Positions 1 through 38,880 of a DNA stretch of 64,000 nt are shown here, in pieces; position 1 is the first letter of the stretch, and each line of letters starts with the position of its first letter. The translations under genes were made by a program, and so were the position numbers. The notes under the pieces were generated by a model. That model was not told the origin of the DNA and did no database searches. It worked only from the letters and a program-made list of their open reading frames with translations. Source of the stretch: Psilocybe azurescens (taxonomy: Eukaryota; Basidiomycota; Agaricomycetes; Agaricales; Agrocybaceae); assembly GCA_023853785.1 (NCBI GenBank), contig JAJIRX010000152.1:1-64000 (forward strand), in the 5' to 3' direction.

Positions 1-517
1 CGGAAGGTCTCGTGAATGACAGAGACAGAGGAGAAGTACCACAGACAATGAGCCAATATGGCGATGTCGTATTTAGGACTGGTTGAAGTGCTTGGAAGGA
101 CCTGAAGAGGGTCAGCTTGAATCCAGTTGATGCGTGGTCCAAGATCAGTAGTTGAAAGATGCTCATGAGCCTCTCCGACGGTGTACGGAGATCCTAGATC
201 ATTATAACTGAGCAAAGACAGTATCTTCGGGCGCGGTTTTTGAGTAATCACTTACCATAACCTGGTGGAGCGGGATCAACGGCATCTACAGACCCGTTCT
301 TGCCAACCGCATGTGCGATAGCCACCGTGCAGTCACCTTGGCCACAACCAAGCTCCAGCACGCGTGACGCATTTGCGAGGCCTCCCCACGCATCAATCAT
401 CTCCAGGCGATGTGCGACTTGTGCTACCTGAGACTCCATGCCATTTTGGGGGACAAGGAGAAATTTGGAGAGCTCCTCTGCACTAATGGAGGTCATACTG
501 ATCATGGTATGAAACAA
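1..517 (-). CDS. SAM-dependent methyltransferase, 5' part (cut by window edge)
   Basis: Small-molecule class I methyltransferase. The first exon (about 517 down to 249) carries motif I as VLELGCGQGDCTVAIA, preceded by a start-proximal helix rich in E, S and L and followed by the acidic SVDAVDPAPPGYG segment. A GTAAGT donor follows. The next exon (about 190 to beyond 1) reads GSPYTVGEAHEHLS, then NWIQADPL and ILAHCLWYFSS, which is the usual order in fungal secondary-metabolism methyltransferases. The start is either the ATG at 517 or the nearby MTSISAEE methionine. The 3' end lies outside the window. It sits next to the tyrosinase and UstYa genes. Ustiloxin and phomopsin clusters also encode a methyltransferase (UstM/PhomM), so a role in N-methylating the peptide is plausible but inferred. 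Confidence 0.8.
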
Positions 518-802
518 AGAGCTAACGGTCGAGTACTCTTATGCCATTACGCACCGCATAAGGCCGATGCCCCGGTGACACCTGTTCGGGTCCGTGTACA
601 TGGAAATTCGCCACAGAATTCTCGACGATTCAGTTACTGTCCGAAATGAACGCGCTCTGGGGTAGACCGCGTTAGTCCATATGATATGAATCTCAAATCT
701 AAGAATAGACGAAGCCTGCAGCATGATCTTAGGAGAAGTCAATAATTAGATTTTAATTGTTTGCTCCAACCTCATGCTACGGCAAAGGGAAACCGTCCGA
801 TA

Positions 803-1302: not shown

Positions 1303-2941
1303 TCATTCGTACGTATAGCAAAACGGTGGACTTCGATGATCGAAAGTCTGTGAAGTACTGCATTTAGACCGGAATTCGTAAAATGCATCAGAAGTGCTGA
1401 CCTCATGTACTCTAATACCAACACTTAGGTGATCAAACTCCATGGTATGCATGCTTGAGGCGTTTAGATCGTAACGGGGATCAGAAAGATTCGTAGAGTT
1501 TACAGGGATTCCCGAAAAGCTCTGGATATACGATCAGTCACATTTCTGAGATTAAAATTATAAAGCAATATAGCACATACGTCAAAATTTTGAGAAAAAG
1601 AATCTTGCCACTAATAATATCGATAGATAAGGCTAGAAATAATCAGAGTAATAAAATAACTTTACATTGCTCCAGATGCGGTCTAACTGTGCATGATGAA
1701 GCCCTGTACTCGTCGTCAATGGGTGGAGGCCATGAACGGTCATGAACAAGTTCGATCGAACTCACAGAAAATGGGATCTGCGTTCGAGAGAACATCAACA
1801 AATGTTAATCAGTCATCACCATCAGACTAGTAGCGCCTCACTGACCATTTGGTGTATATCCAGCATAGTCGTTATCTTCACATGTCTCCTCGGAGATTGG
1901 CTTGGGGCACACGCCGGCCAGGTCGCCTCCAACGAAATTATGTATATGGTTGTGCATTAATGCCAATTTGTGCTGGAATCGAAAAAATCCCCAGCAAAGC
2001 TCGATGTAACATTATGCACGGTTTCAGCACCAATTGTTTGATTGTGGGCACCCCACCTAAGTCGGCCCACGTGTTCAGGGAAAGATTGCGACGAAGCACG
2101 TGGGGAATTGGAAAAGAAAGTGAAAGAAGGGAGCGACAAGGGCTCCAGATGTGATTGTGCAGTAACGATCTTCTGAACAATCCCCGATTCACCGAGACCA
2201 TGACTTGGCGATGAATCAAACACGGGAGAGTCGAGTAGGGATACAGAGTCTATAATATCGATTCAGTGACCGTTTATATGGCTTAAAATCAATTTGTACC
2301 AGATTACCTTGTGACCAGTCCCAATATCTAAACGAAGGCGGGTATAAGTAGCCAGAAAGCGATGCCAAAGAGAAAAGAATCACGGAGTGGGTCCTTTGTA
2401 TCCACAGATCTCGCGTGTGGCCGTGTCAAATAGATACAAAAACCTGTAGTCGAGCACAATGGGAATCCATAGAGAATGCAATATGGCGATGGCGAACTTA
2501 CCATCGATCTACATAACTATAATTTGAGCATCACAGCATTATTGAGGCAGATAAATGCTTACGCCAAGGAAGAAAGTACGGATTGGAATGGGCAGACTTC
2601 TGCATGGCGTTGTGGGCATACGAGAAATCATCGTAAATAGAATGTTTTCCGTCCAATAGCACGTCTTGGGCTATGTGGGACAGTCGTCGATGTTTGATCG
2701 AGCCAAGACACTAAGAGATATTGGAAATCCTGCATTTACACTGAACATCGTAAATGCAAAATCTCACCTTGACACTCGATATCCATTTTTCCCGTTGGAC
2801 TTCCGACAGCGATCTCCATTCAATTCGAGGGTTGAGTTTGGCGCAGCTGGCAGACTTGTGAGCTATAGGAGTAGTAAGCGCCAGCGATTGAATGAGTAAA
2901 AGAATATTGAAAAGAAAGTATGGCAAAGTCGGAGCTTTCAT
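1303..2941 (-). CDS. Tyrosinase (type-3 copper), UstQ-like candidate
   Basis: Secreted or lumenal type-3 copper oxidase that would hydroxylate or oxidise tyrosine. It is spliced from about eight exons on the minus strand. From the start (ATG 2941): a hydrophobic signal peptide (FLFNILLLIQSLAL); the family word NPRIEWRSLSEVQREKW; CuA residues in YDDFSYAHNAMQ and AHSNPYFLPW; TREICGYKG; YWDWSQ; SPVFDSSPSHGLGESG; CTITSGA; PHVLRRNLS; CuB words HNHIHNFVGGDLAG and DPIFWLHHAQLDRIW; and a terminal CYTY motif before the TGA at 1303. Two odd points: the third CuA histidine (normally in WHR) is not recovered by the simplest splice, which gives WRF; and two one-base frame breaks occur near 2182-2185 and 2130-2140. 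The gene is divergent from UstYa, separated by about 300 bp. The position suggests work on the tyrosine-containing repeat peptide. Confidence 0.82.
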
Positions 2942-3228: not shown

Positions 3229-3999
3229 TTGCACGACGACACCAGTCTATTTCAAGTTCTTGCATTTCTCGTTTTGTGCTGTACTATGGCCTGGAATTAC
3301 TCCTCGTTAACACTTTCCAAGAAGCTTCGGCCAGCCATTTCCAGCTGCCTTTGGGGCTGGTTTATGTCTTTCAATTATTCTCAACGCCGCTGTTCTTGTA
3401 TGGCAAACGACCGTCATATTCTCCAACACCCCAAGTTATAGTAAGATTCTCCTCACCCATCACAATGCGGTACCCTGATAGTTTCGAAGCCTATGTCGGT
3501 ACTGACATGCCTAGGGAACTACCCATCCCAGTACGTAATGTCAATATGGCTTTCCACGACGACCCGGAACACTACGCCATGAGCGGTACTCCGAGCCTGG
3601 GCCGAATGGAATGAAATTCGCCCTCCTGGAAAGGGATACATCTTCCTTGGAGACGCTTACTACCCTTTTGGAGTGTCAATGTGGCATCAAATCCATTGTC
3701 TCAATCACATCCGCACCATGTTCGTCAATGGCGATGACGGCTCCGACCACACAGAGCATTGTTTTCACTACTTGAGACAGGCGCTCTTGTGTGCGGCCGA
3801 TACCACACTAGAGTATGGCGGTCCTTCCATGCGTTCTCCCAATGGAGATGTTATTGCAACAGGGGTAAATGTTACACATACGTGCAGGGATTGGAAGCAA
3901 GTCCACGACTATATGGAAGAAGAACATGGAAAATGGACTCCGGAGATGGTCGCAAGGATGAAAGATGTATCTGATGGAACTAATAATCACGCGATTTAG
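3229..3999 (+). CDS. UstYa-family oxidase (DUF3328)
   Basis: UstYa-type proteins carry out oxidative cyclisation of ribosomal peptides in fungi. This one has both diagnostic HxxHC motifs: HQIHCLNHIR (around 3683-3712) and HTEHCFHYLRQ (around 3750-3780), followed by LLCAADTTLEYG. Before them are a single membrane helix (AGLCLSIILNAAVLVW, about 3354-3400), NTPSYS, EAYVGTDMPRELPIPV, DDPEHYA and WAEWNEIRPPGKGYIFLG, all in family order. The stop is TAG at 3997. The start is uncertain because a 5' intron is needed to reach an ATG. A frame change occurs between EHYA and WAEW near 3585-3595, which is either an indel or an unrecognised splice. It is divergently transcribed from the tyrosinase and lies 2.6 kb upstream of the repeat precursor, on the same strand. 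Confidence 0.85.
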
Positions 4000-4128: not shown

Positions 4129-5038
4129 CTAGTCCTTTCGGATTAACTCAAATCCCATCATTGGAACCATATGCACCTGCTTAAACTTAACCTCGCATGC
4201 CACCCTTAAGCATCTCATCTCGATAACCAAGTCTTCTTCATCGTCCGGGCATCCAAACTCTACCGTAGTCGAATTCGGCTTTGCGCTCATATCCAATGTT
4301 CCCAGAAGCTCCCCTCGAATTGGGCGCGTGTTCCACGATATTTCATTGAAGTTAATGTTCTTGACAGTTGGTGAAGCAGTATCTGCGAGGATTTTAGGAG
4401 AAATGATCGACCACACCTCAATTTCGGAGATGTCGCCTTTGGTATGAAGATCGTTGGTGCGAGCACTGAGGCTGGGGAGCCGTCCATGTTACGGCGCAAT
4501 TAATTGAATTGGATCTGGATGTCGGTACCCGAAAGCGAAAGATTGAAGAATCCTGTTAGAATTACCATGAGAATTATGCCAGGTAATAGCGCGAAATATA
4601 AGATACCTCGACGGATATGAAAACCTGAACACCATCTCCGTAGACCGCATTCTTCAGCTTTTGGCTCAATCGAGTAATATTCGAAGGCCAGGAGCGAGAC
4701 CAGGTTGGGTGATGTGGAATAACCTTGGACGCTCTGTCTAAACCGATACCTTGTGTAGGATAGGGAAGCATGTTCAGCTCGGGTTGCGTGAGTGATGCGT
4801 TTTTGTATTTGGGAAGTGTAAACGGAAGGAGAGCGCCATTGAGAATGCTGAGAGATACCAGGAGAACAGAGGCGTAAAATATCGGGCGAGATATTGTCAA
4901 AGGATTATGGGATTGAAGGGAGCCTTCCGTCGTTTGGTACTTGTACTGGGCCGACGAAGAAATTCCATCTTCACTTGAGTCGTCGTATGTGCTTGGGTTG
5001 AGCAGAAGATATTCTGGCTGGGGCATCTGGTCATACAT
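4129..5038 (-). CDS. Single-pass membrane protein, But2-like basidiomycete family
   Basis: Function unknown. The N-terminal exon starts MYDQMPQPEYLLL (ATG 5038), which is polar and Ser/Asp-rich. A membrane helix follows at about residues 50-68 (FYASVLLVSLSILNGALLPF), then the conserved region YPTQGIGLDRA and a mixed segment up to GDGVQVFISVE. After an intron around 4570-4500, the C-terminal part contains WNTRPIRGELLGTLDMS, STTVEFGCPDDEEDLVIEM and VACEVKFKQ. In mushroom genomes this pattern (helix, GLD/GLE block, 'RGELLGTL', Cys/acidic block, 'VxFKQ') marks a large family sometimes annotated as But2 C-terminal domain. Whether it belongs to the peptide cluster is unclear, since such genes are common and often tandem. 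Confidence 0.6.
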
Positions 5039-5364
5039 TGTCGCCTATGGTAGTGAAGATCATGGATTAAGTTAATTGAATTGGGTCACATCTAATGTAA
5101 GAGGCGTGTCATCGGAGATCTGCCTCCTCTACTCGTACAATCGTACAATTTGGCATTGTTACCAGCCCAATTACGAATACAGTGATGTTAAAAATGAATA
5201 CCGAACACAGCGGTGTACACTGACTGCGCTGTTTGCGGCACGAACAGTATCCAAGTTTATTCTTATATCAACGTATATTGTTGCGAAATGGAGGTCAATA
5301 ATAGACTTAAGAAGGGTCGAGCAGTCCCGAGTGACTTATCATCGTCACCCTCCTAGACTATCCC

Positions 5365-6565: not shown

Positions 6566-8226
6566 ATGCTTTTCAACTCTAACCGCCTACTTATGTGCGT
6601 TGCATGCGCAGTGTTCACCGTAAATGCGCTTCCCGCGCAGCTCACTGAAGGTGGAGTCAGTTAATTCATCTGTATAGCGGTAGTATACCTGTTGGCTAAT
6701 GCATTGAAAATCAGGTTCTCGCGAAGCGTGTTGCCCATGTCTATGGTGTAGACGAAGATGAGGCCCTCAGCAGGCGTGTAGCACACGTCTACGGTGTAGA
6801 CGAGGACGAGGTCAGGATATCAAAATGTTACTTTGCTAGCTGCTTAACAATATTATATGCACTGGCAGGCCCTCACCAAACGCGTTGCTCACGTCTACGG
6901 GGTGGACGCGGATGAGGTTTGTATGCACTATTTTTATTACATACATCCGAATCCAACGCTCTTTGACAGGATCTCACGAAGCGCGTTGCTCATGTCTACG
7001 GTGTGGACGCGGACGAGGTCGGAAAGGTTTTCCTCGAACAAATAATTATCTAATGCAAAATACTGTTAGGATCTCACCAAACGAGTCGCTCACGTCTATG
7101 GTGTGGATGCAGATGAGGTGAATAGATTAATTCTATATTTCTCAAATGGTCATGGCATCTAACACTGGCCCTAGGCTCTTACCAAGCGTGTTGCACACGT
7201 CTACGGTGTTGACGCAGACGAGGTCAGAGATTTATGTCACCACATAGTCATTCAATATCCAACTCCTCTATAGGCACTCACCAAACGCGTTGCTCACGTT
7301 TATGGCGTGGACGCCGACGAGGTAATTAAAGTCTAGAAGACTGCCTTACACCAAGAAGCTAACCATCAAATGATGACTATCAGGCACTGAGCAAGCGTGT
7401 TGCACACGTCTATGGGGTGGACGCAGATGAGGTGACAATTCTTTCCTTAACCGAGTATCCATTCACATCCAGCTAATTGACCTTGACAGGACCTCACAAA
7501 GCGTGTTGCTCACGTCTATGGGGTGGACTCCGATGAGGTTAGTTGGGATATCCTCCTTGGCTTTATCAAGGAAAGATTTAAGAGATGTCGAGTACTTACT
7601 ATGTAACGATGACAGGATCTCACAAAACGGGTTGCACATGTCTACGGGGTGGACGCCGACGAGGTTAGACTATTCTGCTCCACGCAAATTCTAATCCTTC
7701 CCAAATAAAATATATCACTGACGTCAGACGTATCCTTTGTTATATAGGAGTTGACCAAGCGCGTTGCCCACGTATACGGCGTAGATGCAGACGAGGTTTG
7801 AACTTTCCCTTCGACTGAGCGACTAGAGTACAAGCCTCTAACCTAACTGAATTCAACAGACTCTTACGAAGCGCGTCGCGCACGTCTACGGAGTAGACGC
7901 TGACGAGGTTAGCCTCATTTTCATAGCTCGATTGACGCTAAAATCTCACTGTCTTTTGTATTTTCTTATGTAGGACCTGACTAAGCGTGTTGCTCATGTC
8001 TACGGTGTAGATGCCGACGAGGTTAGACATCTAATATTTGATTAGGACCTAATAGTTGTCAACTTGGTCTGATTTCTCAAATCTCATTACAGGCTCTAAC
8101 AAAGCGCGTGGCACATGTCTACGGCGTGGATGAGGACGAGGTGAGATCGTCTGCAGCACTAAAGATTCTAATTTAATGATGTAATTAAACTTCATTTTAC
8201 AGACTCTCGCGAAGCGTCAATCTTGA
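6566..8226 (+). CDS. Kex2-processed repeat peptide (RiPP) precursor, dikaritin-like
   Basis: Predicted 261-residue secreted precursor, 15 exons. Exon 1 (6566-6655) encodes a signal peptide (MLFNSNRLLMCVACAVFTVN, cleavage after ALPA) and ends at a GTCAGT donor. Exon 2 (6715-6810) holds two repeats. Exons 3-14 each hold exactly one 16-residue repeat: 6869-6916, 6970-7017, 7070-7117, 7175-7222, 7274-7321, 7384-7431, 7490-7537, 7616-7663, 7748-7795, 7860-7907, 7974-8021, 8093-8140. Exon 15 (8203-8226) encodes TLAKRQS-stop. Each repeat contains a Kex2 site (KR or RR) followed by the invariant VAHVYGVD. Variable residues are E/A/S before DE, then A/D/E/T/V, and T/S/A before the dibasic site. Kex2 cutting would release about 14 copies of a 14-residue, single-Tyr peptide. 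The architecture matches UstA/PhomA-type precursors, and UstYa, tyrosinase, methyltransferase, P450 and MFS genes lie nearby. The final product is not known. Confidence 0.92.
6715..8140 (+). repeat. Fourteen exon-encoded 48-bp repeats with unrelated introns between
   Basis: The 48-bp unit recurs 14 times: twice fused in exon 2, then 12 times as single exons. Intron lengths are 59, 58, 53, 52, 57, 51, 62, 58, 78, 84, 64, 66, 71 and 62 bp. All introns are phase 0, all internal ones follow GAG, and apart from splice signals they look unlike one another. Units differ mostly at third codon positions (GTC/GTT/GTA, TAC/TAT, GGG/GGT/GGC/GGA), while VAHVYGVD never changes. This points to old exon duplications kept alike by selection on the protein rather than recent array slippage. 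Confidence 0.92.
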
Positions 8227-8692
8227 AGATGATATGTTAGACGGACTCGTGAACACCATTATAGGGATAGTCACTTCGTGTAATGTCCTCTGAATTAGCC
8301 GATCTAGTGTGGTAGTTATCAATGGAGCAGCAATAAGATGAAAGCGATTGTCAAGATGAGGATTGAGTCCATCTGGAGACTGCTCAATATGTGTCAAACC
8401 CTAGCGGTCGGAATTTTTGGAACTTAGCAATTTAAATGTCGAGCATGAACAATGAGTTGTTAAAATTTACCATGACTTCTACCTACCTGCAGCTTGTTGT
8501 TGACGGCCAGATTAAGACCTTTAGTGAGCACTCCTGAGCTCAATGGTATTGTCTTGTGTTCTACTTTGAATTTTTAAATATTGAATTTCTCTTTATGACC
8601 AACATTATTTCAGGAAGATAGCTCGTGCTCACGGGTAGGTATTCGTATAGTATGTTTAAGGGAAAACTTAACTTCCCATGTGAATTGATGCA
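8227..8692. other. Short intergenic region between convergent genes
   Basis: No gene recognised. This is the 3' flank of the precursor gene and of the seven-helix gene on the other strand. A minus-strand frame at 8197-8397 overlaps the precursor's last exon and has no support. Confidence 0.4.
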
Positions 8693-9920
8693 TTAGCGTC
8701 TACGGTCAATGGTGACATTTGCACTACGGCCCCTCAGACTTCCTTGTTGGGACTCGAAGTGCAAATTGGATATGTGTGTGATTGTTGGTTCAACCGTGTA
8801 GTTGGAGTTTGTGAGAGCAATTCTTGCCACAAGAACCGTGGAAGCCATTCCCTAACTGTGAGTTAGAAGGTCACGATCATCATACAAAGAAAACTTTAAT
8901 ACGTACTGGTACAACAATCAGCACTGCATCCACAAAATATCCAGCTTGATACAAGGGAGATCCCACTAGGTTAAACGATGGAATGACAGCAAATACGGCG
9001 TCCAAGAGGAGAACGAATGAGTACACTGCGGCTGACTCAATCACTAATACAACAATATGTTTGAATAGTCTTTTCGAAGGTTGACCATTCAAACGAGCAA
9101 CAGAATATATTCTGTACCCGATAAGCAACGATGTAGTCACTGTGGTGGCCAGCGACACAAATACCAGAGCGCTTGTAAGGCTATTGAATAGGGCCGCACT
9201 CGTATTGGCCCCGCTGGTTAAACGATGGGATAACCCTTCTAAGATTGTGGCTGTAACAAAGAGGCCTGCGAAAAACACTATCAGCTTGATAATGCGATGC
9301 TTGATTCGTAAGAGTTACCGAATTCCGCAAGTAAGAGTATCAGTAAGACTGAAACTACTCGGAACGATCGACCCCAGACGTGGTAGCATCTCCATATCTA
9401 TCGACACACCGATGAGAATGATGCGATAATCAATAATATCTACCAACCAGTAGTCCATCGGATGCAACGAACGAGGCATAGAATGGAACGTTGGCAAATA
9501 CCCACAGCCATTTCGGGCCTCCTTCCACTGTAGAAAAAAAATAGACTCTCGTGTGTCTCCATTAATCACGACATCTAAATCAATGGAGTACCACTGTACA
9601 ACAAATTGCACGAAGCAAAGGAGGTACAGCACTGAAATAGCCGAAAGGACGATGCGGCGGTTCGCATGTGTGGCTTTATTGGAAGCTGCAGGGCGCGTTT
9701 TTGCATTGTTATTCCAAATAGAAGAAGAAAGCTCACAGTAAATGAACAATGTTCCAGCATATACCAAGGTATATATGCCTGACGTGAGTGAATATGCTGT
9801 ACTGATCAACCGGCGAGGAAACTTACCCATCAAATAATTCAAAAGCATTGACGAATTGAGATTGCTGCTGATCTCCGCCTGTTGGAAATTTGTAGAGAAT
9901 GGCTGGTCTGATGTAGACAT
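8693..9920 (-). CDS. Seven-helix membrane protein, basidiomycete DUF6534-like
   Basis: Multi-helix plasma-membrane-type protein of unknown function, a large family in Agaricomycetes. ATG at 9920 (MSTSDQPFSTNFQQ). Hydrophobic segments are seen in LISTAYSLTSGIYTLVYAG, RIVLSAISVLYLLCFVQFVV, the FFAGLFVTATILEG segment, LTSALVFVSLATTVTTSLLI, IVVLVIESAAVYSFVLLL and YFVDAVLIVVP. Family words include SGANTSAALFNSLTSALVF and the loop RLNGQPSKRLFKHI. After an intron from about 8906, the last exon reads GMASTVLVARIALTNSN and ends with a hydrophilic tail at the TAA (8693-8695). It converges on the precursor gene and may be a bystander. Confidence 0.7.
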
Positions 9921-11162
9921 CAGGGAGATGTTGGAAAAACGCTTACTTCACAGACTCGTTATATGCCAGTTAACATGAGATGCACGGTTTCAAGAAATTA
10001 TGGCATGACTTGCTAATAGAGCATTTTGCCTGCCTCCATATGATACTACTCTGAGTAAGTATACCGCGACATAAGCTCGATCGGCCAGCATCAGAAATAA
10101 ATACTCTACACATCACCACGGCGACATCAAGGTATTGGGATGGTCAACCATAATGAGACTTACAGTGAGCAACTGTCATATGCACAAAGTAGGCTTGCAC
10201 AATCAGGTACGCAATGGGATCTAGGCGATGAAATCTCGATCACCATGTCATCGGTCCCGATGTTCTTTTACTCAGGCACAACAGGTACAAAACATATTGG
10301 AGCTATAGTGGATACGAAGAACATGCGTCAACGACGCAGAAAAGGCTGAAGGAGTCGCCCGCAAGCATAAGACAAGGACTTAGGTGAGGTCATCAGGATG
10401 ATGGTTGATAGGCATAATCCTAAACTCTCTAGTACATCCCGCACTTTGCCGAACAGGGAAGGAATTCGTCGCAAGGAGGCTACAGGTGAGGCGACTTAAA
10501 CGTCGCGAGCGGTGTGCATTGAAATTTGGAATACGAGTTTCATAACATGGATATGAGATCCTGCCCAGTTCGTATATGGGGGAGACCACCAGAAAAAGTG
10601 CGGCATTGCGACATTGTGAAACAGACGAATTGTAAATTGCACGATATCGGATATGGTGATTTGAAGCGTCAACAGTTGGCTACGGCGTGAGCTTAAAGAG
10701 TAGAAGTTATATGCCAGAGGAACGTACGACTACTCACGGAGCCGGATCCAAAATGATAGATCTGAGGTGAGTAGAAAGACCACTCACACGATTGTGAGTG
10801 ATGCAATAATTCGGCGGCTTTCTGACCAGCATAGAGGGAAAAGATGTACGTCGCGTGTTCAACGTCTAGCAGTAGAGTTAAATCGGAATTTGAATGTTGA
10901 ACGTTGAGTTGTGCTACTCCGACGCCTATCCTCCTGCATGTCGTTGCCACCAGATTGCTACACTCACAGACAGACAAAAATGTCAGTTGTTGATTATCAA
11001 ATTCTACAAATAGCCAATTGGAAGCGATCGAGAAAGTTAAGTTGCCGAGTCTTCAACGAACCCATTCCGTGCGTCTGCAGTTTCTGGCGTCCACGGCCAC
11101 GTCCACGTCTACGTTAAAACAACCACATCTGTGTTCGCATTGAACAGTAATCGTAACCCACT
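9921..11162. other. Gene-poor stretch, no recognised gene
   Basis: Several frames of 60-95 residues exist on both strands (for example + 10140-10349 and - 10693-10977). None has a recognisable motif, a signal peptide or a convincing spliced extension. The last 100 bp are probably the promoter and leader of the dehydrogenase gene that follows. Confidence 0.4.
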
Positions 11163-14874: not shown

Positions 14875-17800
14875 TTATAGTAGATCATCGAGCGCGGCCA
14901 TCTCAGACCCGCACGGATTGCCAATAGCTTCGATCTCATGGTCTGTATTTTTGGGGAAAATGGTAACCATCACTATGACCCAGAGCACCCGAGAACCAAT
15001 ATGGAATAATATGGACATGTAGCTAGGAAGAGAAGAAAGAAGGAAGGTGTAAAAGGCATAGAATAGAGCCGCGCAGGTGAGCACGACGCAGCATACACCG
15101 CACCACGACACATTCCCACATCCATCTATACGAGAAAACAATCAGCGAGCATCTTATATAACACCTGAGAGAACGCATTACTGACCTGTCAGACGCCCAG
15201 AATTACTCGTCCAAACAATCCCCGGAAAATCATCTCGCCATGCCCTTACTTTGTACTCCTGCGTGGTAAAAGCACGCTCCGAGTATAGGCGCCTACCCGT
15301 ACAGCCGCCCCAGCTATGCGTACCCGCATGCCCGCCCGCACACCTGCACGCTTTAACTCTGCATGCCCCTGCACATCCGAGTCGTACCTAGTATCGATAG
15401 ATCCATCGAAATAAGGATCCACTATACCAGTATTGGCATTCTCTCGTGTCCCGTTGATGGATTCGTCGAGATAAAACACCGTGTCTAACTTTATATCATC
15501 TAAGTATCTGGGCTTGTATGTAACGTCTTTCCATTGCGTCCAGTCGATGGCTATGTTGAACCCTGCCGGGATAGTCCCCGTGCACCTCAACAAATAGTCG
15601 CTGACTGCGTTAAACATGGACCGCAACCTATCGTGCACATTTCCATCTGGCCTTCCTAGAGAAAAAATTAGACTCCGTTGGCTGAGCAAGGTGATTAGGT
15701 TATCCGAGTGCCCGGCTCTTGATAAGACGAATACGAAAGCGTCCCAGATGAGGTCCCATTGACCACGATCGCTCCCTACACTCGACTTCTTCCCATCCCA
15801 AGGTCTGATCACGAATGCGGCCGCAAACTCTGCAGCCGTAGTGTACGTCACCTGGTTCACAACATGGGGTCCAGCTCGAGATGGGTCGTTTAGAAAAGTT
15901 GTCACAAGCGCTAAATATTGGCCATCGGCTACATATTGGCCATCAGCTTCTTGCAACCAGGTTGTGGCCGTATTAAAAACCATGTCGTGAGATATCTCGG
16001 CAGTGAAGAGAGTGATCGTAACATAGAGAAAAAGGCCAGAAGTAGATGAAGAAGGTAGTAGGGCCGTAATAGTCTCAAGAAAGACCGCTCTGGCAACATG
16101 CTTGAGTGCTATGCCGACACAGGTGGCAGTCCAAAAGGCCAGACCAGGGCTCTGGGGGACCAAAGCGAGGTCTTCGCGCATTTGTTGGTCCCAGATACCT
16201 CGATGGCGAAGATAAAGCTCTTGCGTATCCCGGAGGGACTTCATAGGAATCAATGTAAGCTAGTTTGGATATATTTTGAGAGATAACTCACCGACGTTTG
16301 CAGAAAACTGAGAAATTCTGTCAAAGCATCACTGACTCTGAACGTTGAGAAGTACGGTCTATCATCCCAGAACCACCTCTTTGCACCGTTCAAGAAGTGG
16401 ACATAGGGCATGTTGAGGACCTCCTTCCGAAGACTGGCGTTGTCATACAGAAGAGGGCCTGCTTGTCGAAGATGACCAAACAGTGATGTGCACACAAGCT
16501 GCACGAAATCTGCGTCGAAAGTGTCCGGAAAGGCATTGCCTCCGGCAGCAACTATACAGTGTTTGGAATGAGCCAAGACTTAGTAACTTATGGGAGAGGT
16601 AGAACTTCATGAAAATTTACCTGATATCCAAAACGAGTTGATGTGAGACACGCAAAGACGTGCTGCTTCCTCGTGCACTTTACTGGGGTCAATATAGAAC
16701 TGAAGAGATCGTGTAGGGTCAAACAAAAGTCACTGAAAGACGCATGGAATAACTTGATAGGTTCCGTATTATTAGAAGCATCTACAACCGAAAGTAGATT
16801 GATGAGCAGAAGCTGGATAGCGCCTGGGCTCAGGCGCATGAACTGCTTGAGATCATAGATGGTCACATTGCCCATGACTAGAGAAAGTCCTAGCACTCGC
16901 AACGCTGCTTTGATGCCCTCCACACCGGATAGGACGTTGATGTATAGTGCGTCAAGCTGCGCATATGGTTTATCGTTATTGACAGGAAGAAGTCCATGAA
17001 TGACTTTCAGGCGATCAAGAGGGTTGTGACGAGGGGGAAGACACATATCGAATCACCGTGGCTGCGTAAATGAACTGACCTGATGATTTTGTTACCAATT
17101 TATCGATGTCTTCCTCAGAAGGCCAAGAATCTGGGAGATCAGCTCGCATGATGTGTGTCTTTCGAATTTCGTAAAATGAGTCTATCAAATATAGTCTGAT
17201 ATCCTCTTCTGGCTGATACGTGTCATCCAGTGCCAGTCGGAGAGTTAAGTTGTTGAGAGAGGGGCCAGAATATGGAATAGTCAGATGATGTTCTGGTCGG
17301 CTGGCAATGAGGAACATTAAGGGAAGAGTCGAGCGTTGATATTGGAGAGTGTTTGAAATAGTGTTTAGTATGGTGCTCTGAATTTCCGAGCCTTTGCATT
17401 CGTCTAGGCCATCAATGATAATTAGGCAGGGGAAAGGTTCGCCAGATACGAAGAGACCGGATAGCTGAAGAAGGGGGTCTACAATCAGAGTTTGGAACTG
17501 CGTTTCAAAATTGAGCTGAAAGATAGCTGGATCTTTATCGATGGCGGTCTCGATGATTGTCCGAGATTCGGGTATGCGCAATGAAACCTGATAAGCCAAC
17601 GTTGCTACGAGCGCCTTTTCGTTGTTTCGTTTGGGATCCGATCTGGAAAAAAGAAACTTGCGAGAAGGCCATTTTCCCTAAAGCATTGCTCTGCGAACGT
17701 CTGGGCTATGGCGGATTTTCCTGCACCTGCTGGTCCATATAGCCAAAGAACAAACGTTTCCCATCCAAGTTTACGAATAAACCAATCCGTGAGTCTCTGT

Positions 17801-32646: not shown

Positions 32647-33081
32647 GAGGACGTTCCTGGCGTTGAGCTTAGGCTCCACCAGTGGATTACCCTCAACGCT
32701 CGTAACTCTGGCCTGTACAGCTAGAGCCCAGCTTCGCTGCTTCAGTGTTGAGCCTAGCTCCCTGTCGCATGCTTGAAGCTATGCTCGCTGGTCAGCTTGA
32801 GCCATAGCTCGCTGTGTAAACTAGTCTCCACAATGTCGAGTAACAATGAATAGAGCTTTGCCTCTTCGTTGATCTCCATTTGAGTTGAGCAACATCCTCT
32901 GCAGAGCGCTCTAGTCAAGCGTATTTTTGCTGCATGATGAACAAATCGCTTTGCTCGACATGAACGATTGTTAGCTCAACGTTCTAGACGACTAGTGCAG
33001 GTCTTTAGTTAGAAGCTTGATTTCATATCGCTCACTATACCTCAGACCATGATCGCTAACGTCTATTGTTTACAGATAACA

Positions 33082-33861
33082 ATGTCGACCTCCAAGCAAA
33101 CCATCTCCCTCGATGTCAGCAAATACCCAAAGTTTTCTGGCACTCGTCTCCGAGAATGGAAAGACAAGATGGAATCTGCTATCGAGATTGGTAACATTAG
33201 GAACGTGCTTGAAGGAAGGCTGGTCGCTCCAACCGGTCCAGCTCCTACCGCACCAACCATGTTTGCCCCTGACGCCCGATGCTGCCGCAATCGCCGGTAC
33301 CAGGCACTCTACCAAGTCTATCAGCATGAATCCGATCAGTTCTCAAAGGCACAAAAGGAGTATACCGAAGCCAACTCCCGGGCTAAGGGTATTCTTTCAG
33401 TTACCTTGTGGGACGATATCTACAAACAAGTTTTCAGCATGACTGCTAAGGAAGCTTGGGATTGGTTAACCGCTAACTACGGTACCCAACAATTCGTTGA
33501 GACTCTTGACACTTTCAAGAAGCTCCGAGATTACAAGATCGATCTATCCGATCCCAATCCACAAATCGCCCACTTCCGAACCGAATACAAACGTCTTCCA
33601 CTCGAACCAGCTCCTGGCACAGCACCCGGTTCTCCCGACACCGTCCGCATCATTTCCGAATCACTCGCTTGTCTCATTTTACTCGCCGCACTTCCTCTTA
33701 CGAACGACCCTACGCACGAATCCGTCTATCAACGTATGATCGAGTCGTACAAGGAGTCGCACACCGTGACTTCTACCATGACTCTCGACACGTTGCAGGA
33801 GACTATTAGAGTCACCTGGGCATCTCGATTTGGTCACCTTCCTGAGCGCCGAAAAGCCTAA
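33082..33861 (+). CDS. gag: Copia Gag
   Basis: The ATG at 33082 opens MSTSKQTISLDVSKYPKFSG, a normal copia Gag start, followed by LREWKDKMESAI, AKGILSVTLWDDIYKQVF and AKEAWDWLTANYGTQQ, matching the UBN2/Gag-polypeptide region. The frame stops at 33859-33861. Lys-rich sequence in the next frame (33870-34080) is the natural continuation towards the nucleic-acid-binding end. No intact CCHC knuckle was seen in the part in frame. Confidence 0.85.
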   Translation: MSTSKQTISLDVSKYPKFSGTRLREWKDKMESAIEIGNIRNVLEGRLVAPTGPAPTAPTMFAPDARCCRNRRYQALYQVYQHESDQFSKAQKEYTEANSRAKGILSVTLWDDIYKQVFSMTAKEAWDWLTANYGTQQFVETLDTFKKLRDYKIDLSDPNPQIAHFRTEYKRLPLEPAPGTAPGSPDTVRIISESLACLILLAALPLTNDPTHESVYQRMIESYKESHTVTSTMTLDTLQETIRVTWASRFGHLPERRKA

Positions 33862-35218
33862 GAAGGGTACGACCTATATCAAGAAGGGAACAACTTCTCC
33901 TCCCAAGAAGCCCAATGCTCAGAAGATATCGGCTATTGCCGATAAAGGCCCTACTCCGAAACATTCGGACCAACGTGCAGGAGGATCTTCCTCCACTTCT
34001 GACCCGAAAGGGAAGAAGCCGTTCACAAAGAAATGGAAGGATGACAAAGGAAACGATCATCGCACACGTACGCGCACTCGTAGAGCCGCACCAAAGCATG
34101 AGCATTCGCACATTGCTGAGGTTAACTCCGAGGATGACCGCTTCGTGATAGCATCACCTATGCAGGTAGACATGCCAGCACTTATGCTCGGCAACTACAC
34201 GATCTCTGATCGACCTGCTATTATTGTCCCTGATTCTCCCGAATCCGGACATGCGATCACAATTTCCGATTCTCCATCACCGCCAAGAAGGCATGGACGG
34301 CTATCAAGCCGATCATTCCTCTTTGGTTCCATTCGAACCTTCTCATTCAGTCGCCTCATTTGGCCTTTCCGGCGTTGCTATTCGCGAATGTCAAGCCTGC
34401 CAAGGCACGACGTGAAGCTGGATCAGCTCCATATCCCACATTCCACAAAGCCAAGAAACTTCGCTGATCGTATTGGCGCACAGCCAACAACTCAGACCCT
34501 CAAAAGTTTGAGCAAATCATCGAGCAAGACATGGAAGTGGATGAGCCTTTCGTGGATCCCTCTCCAACAAGGGAACTCCTATTGAAACCTTTGACCCCAA
34601 TCAAGGTTTCTCCACGATCCATTTACGAACACGTCATCGACTCCCCGCCCGAAAGCCGCTACTCCGGAACCCGCTCCTTCTACAGTTGAGCCATTCCCTG
34701 AGTACGAAGGTGACGACATCAGTCCCTACATCATTACGGGATCTGATTCCCCACGAGAAGAAGATCGTAACTGGCAACCAAGTCGAGCCCCCACTCCTGG
34801 TTCCAGAAGCCCGTCTATCTTTGACCCCGAAGAAGAATATGGTGGAAACCCCTATGCCTTTTTTGGAAGAAACTCCAGAACCGGAGTTCTCCTTCAGCAT
34901 GGACGCCGATGGCGTTTCACGGGTACACATGACTCCTTACGGGGGATAAAGGAAAGAATCGAGCTGTCGATCCGGTTCAAGCCCAAATGGACCTTCATCC
35001 CCACGTGGTTGATGAAAATGGCAACAAGGTATCTCAGGACTACCGCGACTCCATTGATTTTGGAACGCCTTCCCCTTATAGGGACTACGAAGACGAAGTC
35101 GCAAATAACACTGAATACTTGTACGTAAATCCTCTTGCATTCACTCACTGCAAACCACTAAATATGCTCCTACCAGCTGATCAAGCTGTAGATAGTCGAG
35201 TACAATATTTATGTAATT

Positions 35219-38200
35219 GTGGTAGAAATATCGAACAATGATGTTGAGTTTAGCTCCAATTGTCAGAATTGCAAAGATAAGCTACGAGATTTACTCTCAT
35301 TCATGGAAAACAAAACCATGTGGATGGTAGATTCCGGCGCATCATGTGCCTTTACAGGGAATTTAGCCGATCTTGCCGAATATGCGGAATTCGAAAAAGG
35401 AAAGGAGATACTTGTTCAAACTGCGGACAAAATCATACCTATTCCTGGCCGAGGAACAATCTTCCTTAGCTTGAAACCCCCATTGGCAGACAGATTGTCT
35501 TTCGTTTACATCCGGTACTATACATGCCGAGTATGAAGACTAGACTCCTGTCAATGCGTCAAATGCTTGGACCTGACACGAAAGTCGAAGGAGATTCCAG
35601 CGTTTTGAATTTTATAGATAAATCTACGGATGAGATTCTCTTCATTGCAGAACCATCTGAAAAGATAATCTATATTGGGTTAAAACCCAAATTGTCTCCG
35701 GACAGAACTTGATGGTGTATGAAACTATGCTTGATGATAGCTACGAATTATGGCATCGTCGCATGGGACATCCCTCAGATCAAGTATTGGGCAAACTACC
35801 GGGTAAAACCGAGAATTTCCCATCTGGTCTACAAATACCTAAGGATAAAGCTATATGCGAAGGCTGTGCTAAAGGGAAAATGACCTCGCGAACATTCGCT
35901 GAGAACCCTAAACGCGCAAGCAAATCCTTCGAGCTAATCCACTCTGATCTAAAGAGTTTCCGGTACTTTCGTACCATAAGTTTAAATACTTTATATCCTT
36001 TTTGGATGACTGTACTTCACACGCCTGGATCATTCTGCTTCGGAAGAAGTCAGAAGCTCTAGAAGCCACAGAACAATGGATTGCTTATGTCAGTAGGCAA
36101 TTCAACGCTTACATACAAGCGTGGTTCAGTGACAACGGCGGAGAATACATGTCCAAAGCATATCGAAACTCTTGAAAGATGCAGGTATTGAAATTAAGCT
36201 AAGCGTACCACATCAACCCCAGATGAACGGTCGTGCTGAACGCTTTAATCGGACCATTGATGAAAAATCTCAGGCCATGCGCTTACAAGCGTGCCTACCC
36301 GAGTCCTGGTGGGAGTTCAGCGTTTTACACGCTGTCTATCTCTATAATCGCACACCAGTACAACGGCTCTCGTGGAGTACACCCTTTACGGGATCACCTC
36401 CGAGAAGCCTGATCTGTCCAAACTTAGAGTCTTTGGATGTGGTGCTTACGTCTATCTCCATAAAGATGTGAGAAAGAATAAGCTATCTCCTAAATCGGAG
36501 TTAATGATATTCCTGGGATATCGTGAAGGGCATGAAGCCTACATGATATTTATGCGCACCGGTAATACCGGGTACCATAATAGAATCTTCTTCGCAGCCA
36601 CAGCGCTGTTTGATGAAGCTCTATTCCCAAGATGCATACCACTAAAAACACCTCCGGTCTCTAAAGCCCGTGAGAAGACTAATAAAAAGGAGATAATCCT
36701 GTTGTGGAAATAGAATTTGGAGACTCCGATGATGATGATTCGGATGACTACGCCATTCTACGTACCTGCCCCACCAAAGGTGTCCGCTCCGCCCGAGTTA
36801 GCTACTCCTGGCGATGATGCTGGACCGCCTCCGCCGTCTACGGCATCTCAACCCTCACCCTCCGTCGGTCACGAGAGCTCCGAACCGAGTGGTTCACAGC
36901 CAGGACCATCTCACAGTAGTAGAGCACCGCCCATGCCTACTCAAGGGGAGATAATAATGAGACGGGACCAAGAAGGTCCGACAGGCCGAGAACCCACCCT
37001 CGCAGAGGAGGGAACGTATACCCTCCGGGAACAACCACCGATAAAGATCTCAGGAAAAGACCCTGGCGGTCAGATGTAACAGGATCCGTACCTGATTTGA
37101 CATCACCTGATTTTAGTGAAACGGTACCAACTGGTTGGAAACACCAGAAGAGTATATCCCACGGCGCGGGATGTGATTAAATCAGTCACAGAAGGGGGGA
37201 GAATTAGGGTTTGAATCGCTTTTAGCTCACGCGATTTCTCACCACAATGACCTACCCGATCCTTCCGAAGTCCGAGATTGGACATCGAAGGATATTCGCG
37301 AAGCTTCCCGCCGAGCAACAACAGCGTTGGAGAAAAGCACAGCTTGAAGAACTAGAGGCACTCAAGCAGCGAAAAGTCTACGTGCTTAGTAACCTACCTC
37401 CAGGTGCACACTGCATCAAATGCCGTTGGGTATTCGACATCAAATCAGATGGCCGATACAAAGCCCGACTTCGTGGCCAAAGGCTTCTCACAGATAGAAG
37501 GAATTGACTACACCGAGATATTCTCACCCACACTCTCTACTGCTTCGTTCAGAGTGGTCCTTGCTTTAGCTGCGCTAGAGAATTGGACTGTTGAGGCACT
37601 TGATGTGAAATCTGCGTTCCTATATGGAAACTTAGACGAAGAAATCTATATGGAGCAACCTCCTGGATTTACCCGTCCAGCGGAAAAGAAACACAAGTAC
37701 TCCGGTTACTCAAAGCGCTCTATGGCTTGAAACAAGCCAGCGAAAGCGTGGTGGCATGAACTCGATAAATCCCTCAAAGAGTTCGGCTTCCAGCGATTAT
37801 CGCGAGCGCAGGCATATTTGTTCGCGCGCCCACGCCAGATGGTCGCTGGTAATTTTACTAGCATATGTTGACGATATAGTCATCACCGGTCCGAACTCCA
37901 CTTTAGTCAAACAGAAGAAGGCTATCTTCATGGACAAGTGGGAGTGCCGTGACTTAGGAGTATGCCGAGAATTTCTCCGCATGAAGATTGTCTATAAGGA
38001 CCGAAAGATCTATCTCGATCAAACGGATTACCTTGACAAGATTCTCAAGCGTTTTGGTATGACTGATGCCAAAGATGCAAAAACTCCTTTACCCACTGGG
38101 TATAAACCGGAACACGTTCGAGGAGCGAGTTCATATGAAATTCGGTCACGCTATCAATCGTTGATTGGTTCTATCCTCTATTTGATGATCGGAACTAGAC

Positions 38201-38834
38201 CCGATATAGCATTAGCTGTATGCCAGATGGCTAAGTTCTCATCGAACCCATCTGAAGAACATCTGAACCGAGCTATGTATATGCTTCGTTACCTAAAAGG
38301 TACACGACAGTATGCTCTAGTGTTCGATGGAGGCAGCAACGAAGGCCTGTACACGTACTGTGATGCCTCCCATGGAGATGACAAAACGGAGCCTGATCGG
38401 CGCCGTCCCGGTCCACACAAGGGTTCTTCTTTAGTCTCGCTAATGCTGCGGTCAAGTGGCATTCGAAGACTCAAATCCCTGTTGCGACATCTTCCACGGT
38501 ATCGGAATACATGGCTCTTTCCGACTGTGCACGTGATTGTGCATGGTTCAAGATCTTATTTGGCGAACTTGGTTTACCAATTGATCATGTGCCGCTCTAT
38601 GCCGACAGCAAAGGAGCAATCTTTAACGCTCAGAATCCAGTTACTCAAAAGGGTATTAAACACGTGGAGATCAGATACCACTATATCCGAGAACAGGAAG
38701 AGCTTGGCACGATCAAACTCTATCACGTCCGCACCGATCAAAGCGTTGCCGACATGTTTACCAAGAATCTCGGCCCGACTCTGTTCTTAAAACATCGAGC
38801 ATTCCTAGGCCTTGAATTTTACCCGCTAAAATAA
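35219..38834 (+). pseudogene. pol: Copia Pol: protease, integrase, reverse transcriptase, RNase H (frame-broken)
   Basis: Broken polyprotein read over several frames. The protease active site is MWMVDSGASCAF (35319). The pre-integrase zinc region has LWHRRMGHPSDQVL and CEGCAKGKM. The integrase core has HSDLKSF, a DNGGEY-like acidic word near 36131, and HQPQMNGRAERFNRT. The RT region has WVFDIKSDG, VAKGFSQIEGIDYTE, FRVVLALAALENW, LDVKSAFLYGNL and the catalytic LLAYVDDIVITG (37850). RNase H has YMALSDCARDCAWF, LYADSKGAI and HVEIRYHYIREQ. The stop is at 38832. Several breaks need only one base, as in host genes here. Confidence 0.88.
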
Positions 38835-38880
38835 AAGGTCACAAACGTTATGACGAGTGTAGAGTCAGTACGCTCCACTC

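Follow-up and report, generated by a model that had tools for sequence, protein, structure and literature searches.

What kind of peptide is made from a gene that encodes 14 copies of one short tyrosine-containing repeat, most of them on exons of their own, is the question raised by a locus of the basidiomycete Psilocybe azurescens. The gene lies at 6566..8226 on the forward strand of the window, that is, the whole stretch of 64,000 nucleotides analysed here (C148:1-64000, in an assembly of 70.4 Mb and 937 contigs). Dikaritins are RiPPs that arise from KEP precursors and are cyclised by UstYa homologues; five have been reported (PMC10512285), and reviews place them under Ascomycota (PMC9233826, PMC12048977). 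Based on sequence, we estimate the probability at about three in four that the locus is a dikaritin-type cluster, in which secreted, Kex2-cut HVYGVD(A/E/S)DE repeats are predicted to carry a ring through Tyr as in ustiloxin.

The precursor gene and its repeats

The precursor gene consists of 15 exons and encodes a protein of 261 aa (ATG at 6566, stop codon ending at 8226, CDS of 786 nt including the stop) with a signal-peptide-like start, 14 repeats and the C-terminal sequence TLAKRQS. Exon 1 (6566..6655, +) carries the start codon and, as judged from translation and hydropathy, the signal-peptide-like stretch MLFNSNRLLMCVACAVFTVNALPAQLTEGG; in the hydropathy scan the best 11-residue value was 2.64 (LMCVACAVFTV), and V-N-A follows. 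In the unit listing, repeats 1 and 2 share exon 2 (6715..6810, +), while exons 3-14 (6869..8140, +) are twelve phase-0 exons of 48 nt with a single repeat apiece, parted by introns of 51-84 nt. Exon 15 (8203..8226, +) encodes TLAKRQS and the stop, and thus holds the last KR that the original prediction had placed ahead of the C-terminus. All 13 of introns 2-14 have GT-AG borders, and intron 1 (6656-6714) was read by eye as GTCAGT..ATCAG. This splice model rests on the GT-AG borders, the frame and the second allele, which together with the ATG agree with the 15 exons proposed from the beginning.

As in other KEPs, the repeats are parted by KR or RR (14 units, one of the two before each). The unit of exons 3-14 is 16 aa long and reads xL[T/S]KR-VAHVYGVD-xDE. 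All 14 copies of VAHVYGVD that had been noted were found at 6566-8226 (+), 13 preceded by KR and one by RR, and the acidic stretch noted after them was confirmed by DE in 14/14, the residue between being A in 10 copies, E in three and S in one. The linker had been described as two or three residues long; it is always three ([ADVET]-L-[TSA]), with A, D, E, T or V before the L. A degenerate pattern for VAHVYGVD gave 14 forward and no reverse matches in the window, and none in 200 base shuffles on both strands. Over the whole genome the same pattern gave 36 matches, of which 14 are at the window locus, nine on C664 and 13 on C665, two contigs with overlapping ends; the backward pattern, used as a control, gave none in the whole genome. 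Introns separate the units of the array, and Tandem Repeats Finder did not list it. Matches of 12 Pfam families to the precursor were taken as chance matches of a repetitive protein, since no stretch passed alone; the two best were DUF1871 and Fe_hyd_SSU.

C664 and C665 hold the other haplotype of the locus, the window and C664 being 97.7% identical over 7506 bases. VAHVYGVD is identical in all 27 copies of the two alleles, but its codons do vary. Across the 14 copies in the window, the eight codons of the core show at least 16 silent changes and no replacement. If 25-29% of random changes are silent, and changes are neutral and independent, the probability of such a pattern is about 2e-10 to 3e-9, a figure that gene conversion would weaken. 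Between the alleles, 11 unit pairs differ by 12 silent and no replacement codon differences; units without a one-to-one partner (8-10 in the window, 2 and 9 in the other allele) are not among these pairs. The precursor therefore looks like a translated gene under constraint. The same secretory repeat layout is seen in Ustilago Rep1, whose peptides form fibrils (PMC9769878), and the precursor might likewise be a structural protein, secreted and cut into pieces that coat the hyphae. The repeats here, however, are acidic and of 16 aa with a Kex2 site at every boundary, the spacers vary while the core is kept, and oxidase and tyrosinase genes adjoin the precursor, so that such a protein is a most improbable reading of this gene.

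Neighbouring genes and the predicted ring

Genes for UstYa, a tyrosinase and a methyltransferase were identified within about 6 kb of the precursor, in support of the original prediction of a Kex2-type RiPP precursor in a basidiomycete. The UstYa (DUF3328) gene at 3286..3999 (+) has two HxxHC motifs in exon 2 and matches PF11807 at 3604-3921 with 76.1 bits. The tyrosinase-type gene at 1666..2941 (-), with CuA and CuB stretches, was recognised from two spliced pieces (PF00264, 69.2 bits for its first part and 50.9 bits for its CuB part); its centre and C-terminal exons below 1666 lie outside this reading, and small indels in it differ between contigs. The class I methyltransferase gene at 2..538 (-) is cut by the contig start and continues on C664, where its version matches PF13649 with 32.8 bits. 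The six-frame genome search for tyrosinases gave 46 matches and none at the locus, where the gene was revealed by its spliced pieces. No S41 peptidase was matched in the six-frame genome scan, from which introns may hide one, and a Kex2-type P domain is encoded elsewhere in the genome (four matches on two contigs).

The locus thus shares with dikaritin clusters a UstYa/DUF3328 gene beside a repeat precursor, a tyrosinase gene and a methyltransferase gene. The five-gene list for dikaritins includes more than one DUF3328 gene (PMC12048977), a trait later not required, as asperipin has one. In the profile search PF11807 gave 28 matches in the genome, and UstYa stands beside the precursor on both haplotypes; a second UstYa gene at the locus was not found, with one match each on C148 and C664 in the six-frame search, which short exons could escape.

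Two 1-nt insertions are present in the window copy of UstYa (876/881 identical to C664), a further one is in C665, and the frames of the tyrosinase gene differ between contigs (window and C664 1805/1815 identical, with 4 gap positions). These could be signs of a decaying cluster, in which the precursor persists but this haplotype no longer encodes working modifying enzymes, so that nothing cyclic is made. The C664 UstYa, however, is intact (exon 1, a 49-nt intron and exon 2, 220 aa, HQIHC and HTEHC, 77.9 bits) and equals a deposited Psilocybe cyanescens protein over 171/171 residues, a match that also speaks for the RiPP reading, as do the relatives of the precursor with the same core described below; the core of the precursor, moreover, is constrained on both alleles. 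As evidence from a single gene, the match to P. cyanescens also points to this species or close kin as the probable host. Over the 8007 bases in which C664 and C665 are near-identical, gap openings (19) outnumber mismatches (11), and such gap-rich differences point, short of proof, to assembly error of the kind expected from long-read indels. Decay is accordingly judged very unlikely.

Other features were recorded around these genes. A gene of the CARME (carnosine N-methyltransferase) family, which has matches on five contigs of the genome, adjoins the cluster methyltransferase on the other haplotype (C664:130364-131.9 kb, -, 131.7 bits); the core peptide begins with His, and methylation of this residue by the enzyme is no more than an idea. 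An inverted repeat that separates the genes for the methyltransferase and the tyrosinase (818-1243) looks MITE-type; its 65-nt arms are 97% complementary, with 296 nt between them. Between UstYa and the precursor, at 4132-5044 (-), lies a gene for a protein with one probable membrane-spanning stretch; it is present beside the other allele too, and no Pfam family matched it over the cut-off. The 3' end of the precursor gene is adjoined by a gene for a multi-span membrane protein (8883-9947, -), two pieces of which gave no Pfam match at E 0.1. Further along the window, a NACHT-type NTPase is encoded at 17018-17677 (-; NPHP3_N, 50.9 bits), with a related stretch on C664 (75% over 960 bases), and Copia-type retrotransposon-like ORFs for integrase, reverse transcriptase and RNase H were seen by eye at 33000-38850.

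For a dikaritin-type product, the precursor would enter the secretory pathway via its hydrophobic start, Kex2 would cleave after every KR/RR, and the basic residues left at the end would be removed by Kex1; Kex2/Kex1 processing is established for precursors of such layout (PMC9769878). The VA left at the front would either stay or be taken off by a dipeptidase of the Ste13 kind; in the relatives of the precursor zero, one or two residues stand between the site and the core H. In the motif Y-G-V, UstYa and the tyrosinase would link the phenol oxygen of Tyr to the beta-carbon of Val, and the methyltransferase may act on the peptide in the way known for UstM and PhomM. The link from Tyr O to the beta-carbon of Val/Ile is the best prediction by analogy, because the Y-x-V/I spacing matches the Tyr-Ile cores and both UstYa and tyrosinase are present; in the cores YAIG, YVIG and YVIP the ring is formed between Tyr and an Ile two residues apart (PMC7329392). 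In one unit of a relative Y-G-I stands instead of Y-G-V, both residues being beta-branched at the same spacing. The computed [M+H]+ values for the linear form, the form minus 2 H and the form minus 2 H plus CH2 are, respectively, 1004.432, 1002.416 and 1016.432 for HVYGVDADE; 1289.601, 1287.585 and 1301.601 for HVYGVDADEALT; and 1459.706, 1457.691 and 1471.706 for VAHVYGVDADEALT.

Comparison with known clusters indicates the extent of the analogy. The ustiloxin B cluster of Aspergillus flavus (ustA, ustQ, ustYa, ustYb, ustM) likewise has a Kex2 repeat precursor, UstYa, tyrosinase and methyltransferase (PMC6514808, PMC7329392), and in its core, YAIG, a beta-branched residue stands two positions after Tyr, as it does in YGV here (PMC7329392); UstQ, UstYa and UstYb are needed for the first cyclic ustiloxin intermediate, and ustQYaYb have been expressed in Aspergillus oryzae (PMC6514808). 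It differs in its ascomycete host, its core, its two UstYa-type genes and its further tailoring genes. We know of no one-repeat-per-exon array for the ustiloxin cluster. The phomopsin cluster (phomA, phomQ, phomM) also has a repeat precursor, with eight repeats and KR sites, a tyrosinase, an N-methyltransferase and DUF3328 genes (PMC6514808); phomopsin is not made without PhomQ, the methyl groups on the N-terminal amine come from PhomM (PMC6514808), and the core YVIP carries the Tyr-Ile ring (PMC7329392). It too differs in being from an ascomycete, in its core and in having several UstYa-type genes (PMC10512285). The asperipin-2a cluster (aprA, aprY, aprT, aprR) is similar in its repeat precursor and single UstYa-type gene (PMC6514808), but tyrosinase is absent from its four genes, and its core FYYTGY has two Tyr ether links.

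Relatives of the precursor and of UstYa

The search for the repeat among other proteins, which had been proposed as a check, was carried out in two forms. With the whole precursor as the query, no relative was found at E 0.001 among 7998 scored candidates. With the query limited to residues 31-110 (from the precursor's first 158 residues) and a threshold of E up to 10, three relatives were found among 7785 candidates. P0096 (E 1.4e-14) has four [A/E]HVYGVDADE after KR, P0097 (E 1.3e-7) three SAH[E/V]YG[V/I]DADE after SR, and P0098 of the ascomycete Clathrospora elynae (E 6.4e-7) four HVYGVD[A/S]DE after KR. Their common core is H-V-Y-G-[V/I]-D-[A/S/E]-D-E, in which the first V is replaced by E in one of the 11 units of the relatives, while the flanks differ. 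Pfam matched neither DUF1871 nor Fe_hyd_SSU on the three relatives. In the repeat VAHVYGVD the leading VA is probably a spacer, because the relatives share HVYG[V/I]D[A/S/E]DE and in Clathrospora KR directly precedes the H.

The VA bears on whether the product is cyclic at all. A linear Kex2-processed repeat peptide, perhaps a signal, could be released with VA trimmed by Ste13, the oxidase genes serving another substrate. In 14/14 copies KR/RR is followed at once by VA, an X-A dipeptide of the kind that serves as the Ste13 site in alpha-pheromones and in many KEPs of basidiomycetes (PMC9769878, PMC6339444). Agaricomycete KEPs in which Ste13 motifs occur, such as C. cinerea 490115 and Pleurotus 1091723, resemble the precursor in their secretory layout, repeats and Kex2 sites with an X-A/X-P dipeptide next (PMC9769878); the peptides from KEPs that were detected in C. 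cinerea, Lentinula and Pleurotus are linear (PMC9769878), and those of 490115 and 1091723 differ from the present core in that several are Trp-ended (PMC9769878). UstYa and DUF3328 are not mentioned in the main text of that source, and in a survey of KEPs only 103 of 1680 basidiomycete KEPs have a DUF3328 neighbour (PMC7329392). Here, however, UstYa, tyrosinase and methyltransferase genes all adjoin the precursor, and DUF3328 genes almost never accompany alpha-pheromone genes (PMC7329392). The Clathrospora relative lacks VA, also at odds with an alpha-pheromone, yet keeps HVYGVDADE, and precursor and UstYa relatives appear to share one contig in that other phylum (a longest contig of the same length, 170251, is listed for P0098 and for the UstYa relative P0008, both of Clathrospora elynae). 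A linear product is for these reasons considered unlikely, and the cyclic, dikaritin-type reading is preferred.

The search with the UstYa protein gave 95 proteins, with two HxxHC motifs in 78, one in eight and none in nine; a UstYa relative of Cordyceps militaris, P0017, is 64% identical. A tree of 59 rows was made from 51 of these 95 hits (46 named and five unnamed; the 44 left out are mostly unnamed or partial, with a few named ones), the C664 protein and seven paralogues of this genome as outgroup. The locus protein groups with those of P. cyanescens and Cyathus (99/97), and the 25 ascomycete rows form a single clade (100/99) inside the basidiomycetes, beside the Dacrymycetes Calocera and Dacryopinax (99/98). 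The outgroup branches are long, of the 56 inner branches 26 are open, and bootstrapping is not yet stable, so that the direction of transfer is a lead and no result. A broader proposal is that one macrocycle family, with the core HVYG(V/I)DADE and a link from Tyr to the Val/Ile two on, is spread over mushrooms, moulds and a chytrid, with a basidiomycete origin and a single crossing into Ascomycota, and that the Psilocybe array is a set of interchangeable one-repeat exons, whose number drifts as exons exchange with one another and might also be adjusted through splicing. As a whole it is put forward tentatively, and we consider it rather doubtful in this full form.

The kind of precursor itself is probably catalogued. 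Umemura 2020 surveyed 7878 KEPs (PMC7329392), among which type G-5/P-1 (type 24) comprises 35 KEPs from 19 genera of three phyla, Psilocybe included (PMC7329392). Its members are Y-rich with several D, and a DUF3328 gene is near in 16 of the 35 (PMC7329392). DUF1871 and Fe_hyd_SSU, which head the chance matches of the present precursor, are both among the chance Pfam names given for the type (PMC7329392). The comparison was made with the text description of the type. Of the 19 genera, 11 recur among the UstYa relatives found here, if Plenodomus is counted as Leptosphaeria, as we assume. The listing of Psilocybe, the richness in Y and D, the DUF3328 gene nearby, the Pfam names and the overlap of genera together indicate that the locus probably belongs to type G-5/P-1. 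The text passages on this type give no product name or structure, and the words 'exon' and 'intron' are absent from the main text (PMC7329392). Neither the HVYGVD core nor one repeat per exon was found in the texts searched, a search with figures, supplements and subscription papers outside its scope. Since a matching survey type exists, the kind is already known, and the core, the exon array and the enzyme set make a new variant; the core had been noted as unlike YAIG, YVIPID and FYYTGY, and the type, in a 2020 survey that includes Psilocybe (PMC7329392), is probably not new.

Other KEP-like genes near UstYa genes were observed in the same genome. At C434:346.9-348.1 kb (-) eight AVAPQAWSGYN units (of the ADDAVAPQAWSGYNEKRAEEASD kind) are encoded, seven of them as 69-nt stretches between AG and GT, read as exons of their own; their Trp with Pro fits survey type P-3, which lists Psilocybe too (PMC7329392). 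EQGTSFRR units, without Tyr, gave 15 matches at C623:313.6-314.6 kb and 20 at C625:40.9-42.2 kb, most of them following one another within one exon while a few exons have just one unit, and these two loci may be alleles. By the criterion of at least four copies of a 5-residue word within 4 kb, no such repeats were found in the stretches fetched around the UstYa matches on C40, C538, C438, C641, C723 and C250; at C500:152.6 kb the four-copy words RADTA/DTAWL near UstYa matches possibly belong to another repeat protein.

Allelic variation of the exon array

The other haplotype has 13 repeat copies against 14 in the window, its first and last exons being read by eye. Exon 2 holds three units in the other haplotype and two in the window. 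Allele unit 9 is followed by an intron of the window intron 10 type (77/84 bases alike); its first half shows 2/24 differences from window unit 8 and 8/24 from unit 10, and its second half two differences from each. These sequences are most simply explained by an exchange between exons 8 and 10 in which two units were lost along with two introns, without a change of frame, and the copy numbers agree with it (14 - 2 + 1 = 13). Gain or loss of a unit keeps the frame because the repeat exons are of 48 nt with phase-0 ends. Copy number would shift through such exchange between repeat exons, and the two alleles differ just so; exon skipping would likewise alter the repeat number in frame.

The introns of the precursor are on average no more alike among themselves than expected (mean score 16.5, against 15.6 when shuffled, over 91 pairs), although pairs 10/12, 10/14, 13/14 and 12/13 (3' half) exceed the best shuffled score. 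In a separate comparison of window 6973-9706 with C665:7288-10000, the identity of the haplotypes, about 97.6% up to there, is 87.7% from a point inside the precursor gene on. Misregistered repeats account for part of this drop, and there may be a haplotype break close to the array.

The number of repeats is reported to affect both product and transcript level of ustiloxin (PMC10512285), and in the present array two alleles of one genome show how the repeat number of a precursor changes. Precursors of this sort would escape gene finders that overlook 48-nt exons, and the counts of basidiomycete members may thus be too low. A basidiomycete locus that combines precursor, UstYa, tyrosinase and methyltransferase genes with a core that recurs in an ascomycete offers a target of exact mass. 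The interest of the locus lies in a core common across phyla, in the enzyme set found in a basidiomycete, and in an exon-per-repeat array that changes between alleles; the shared core lets one ask why such different fungi keep one peptide.
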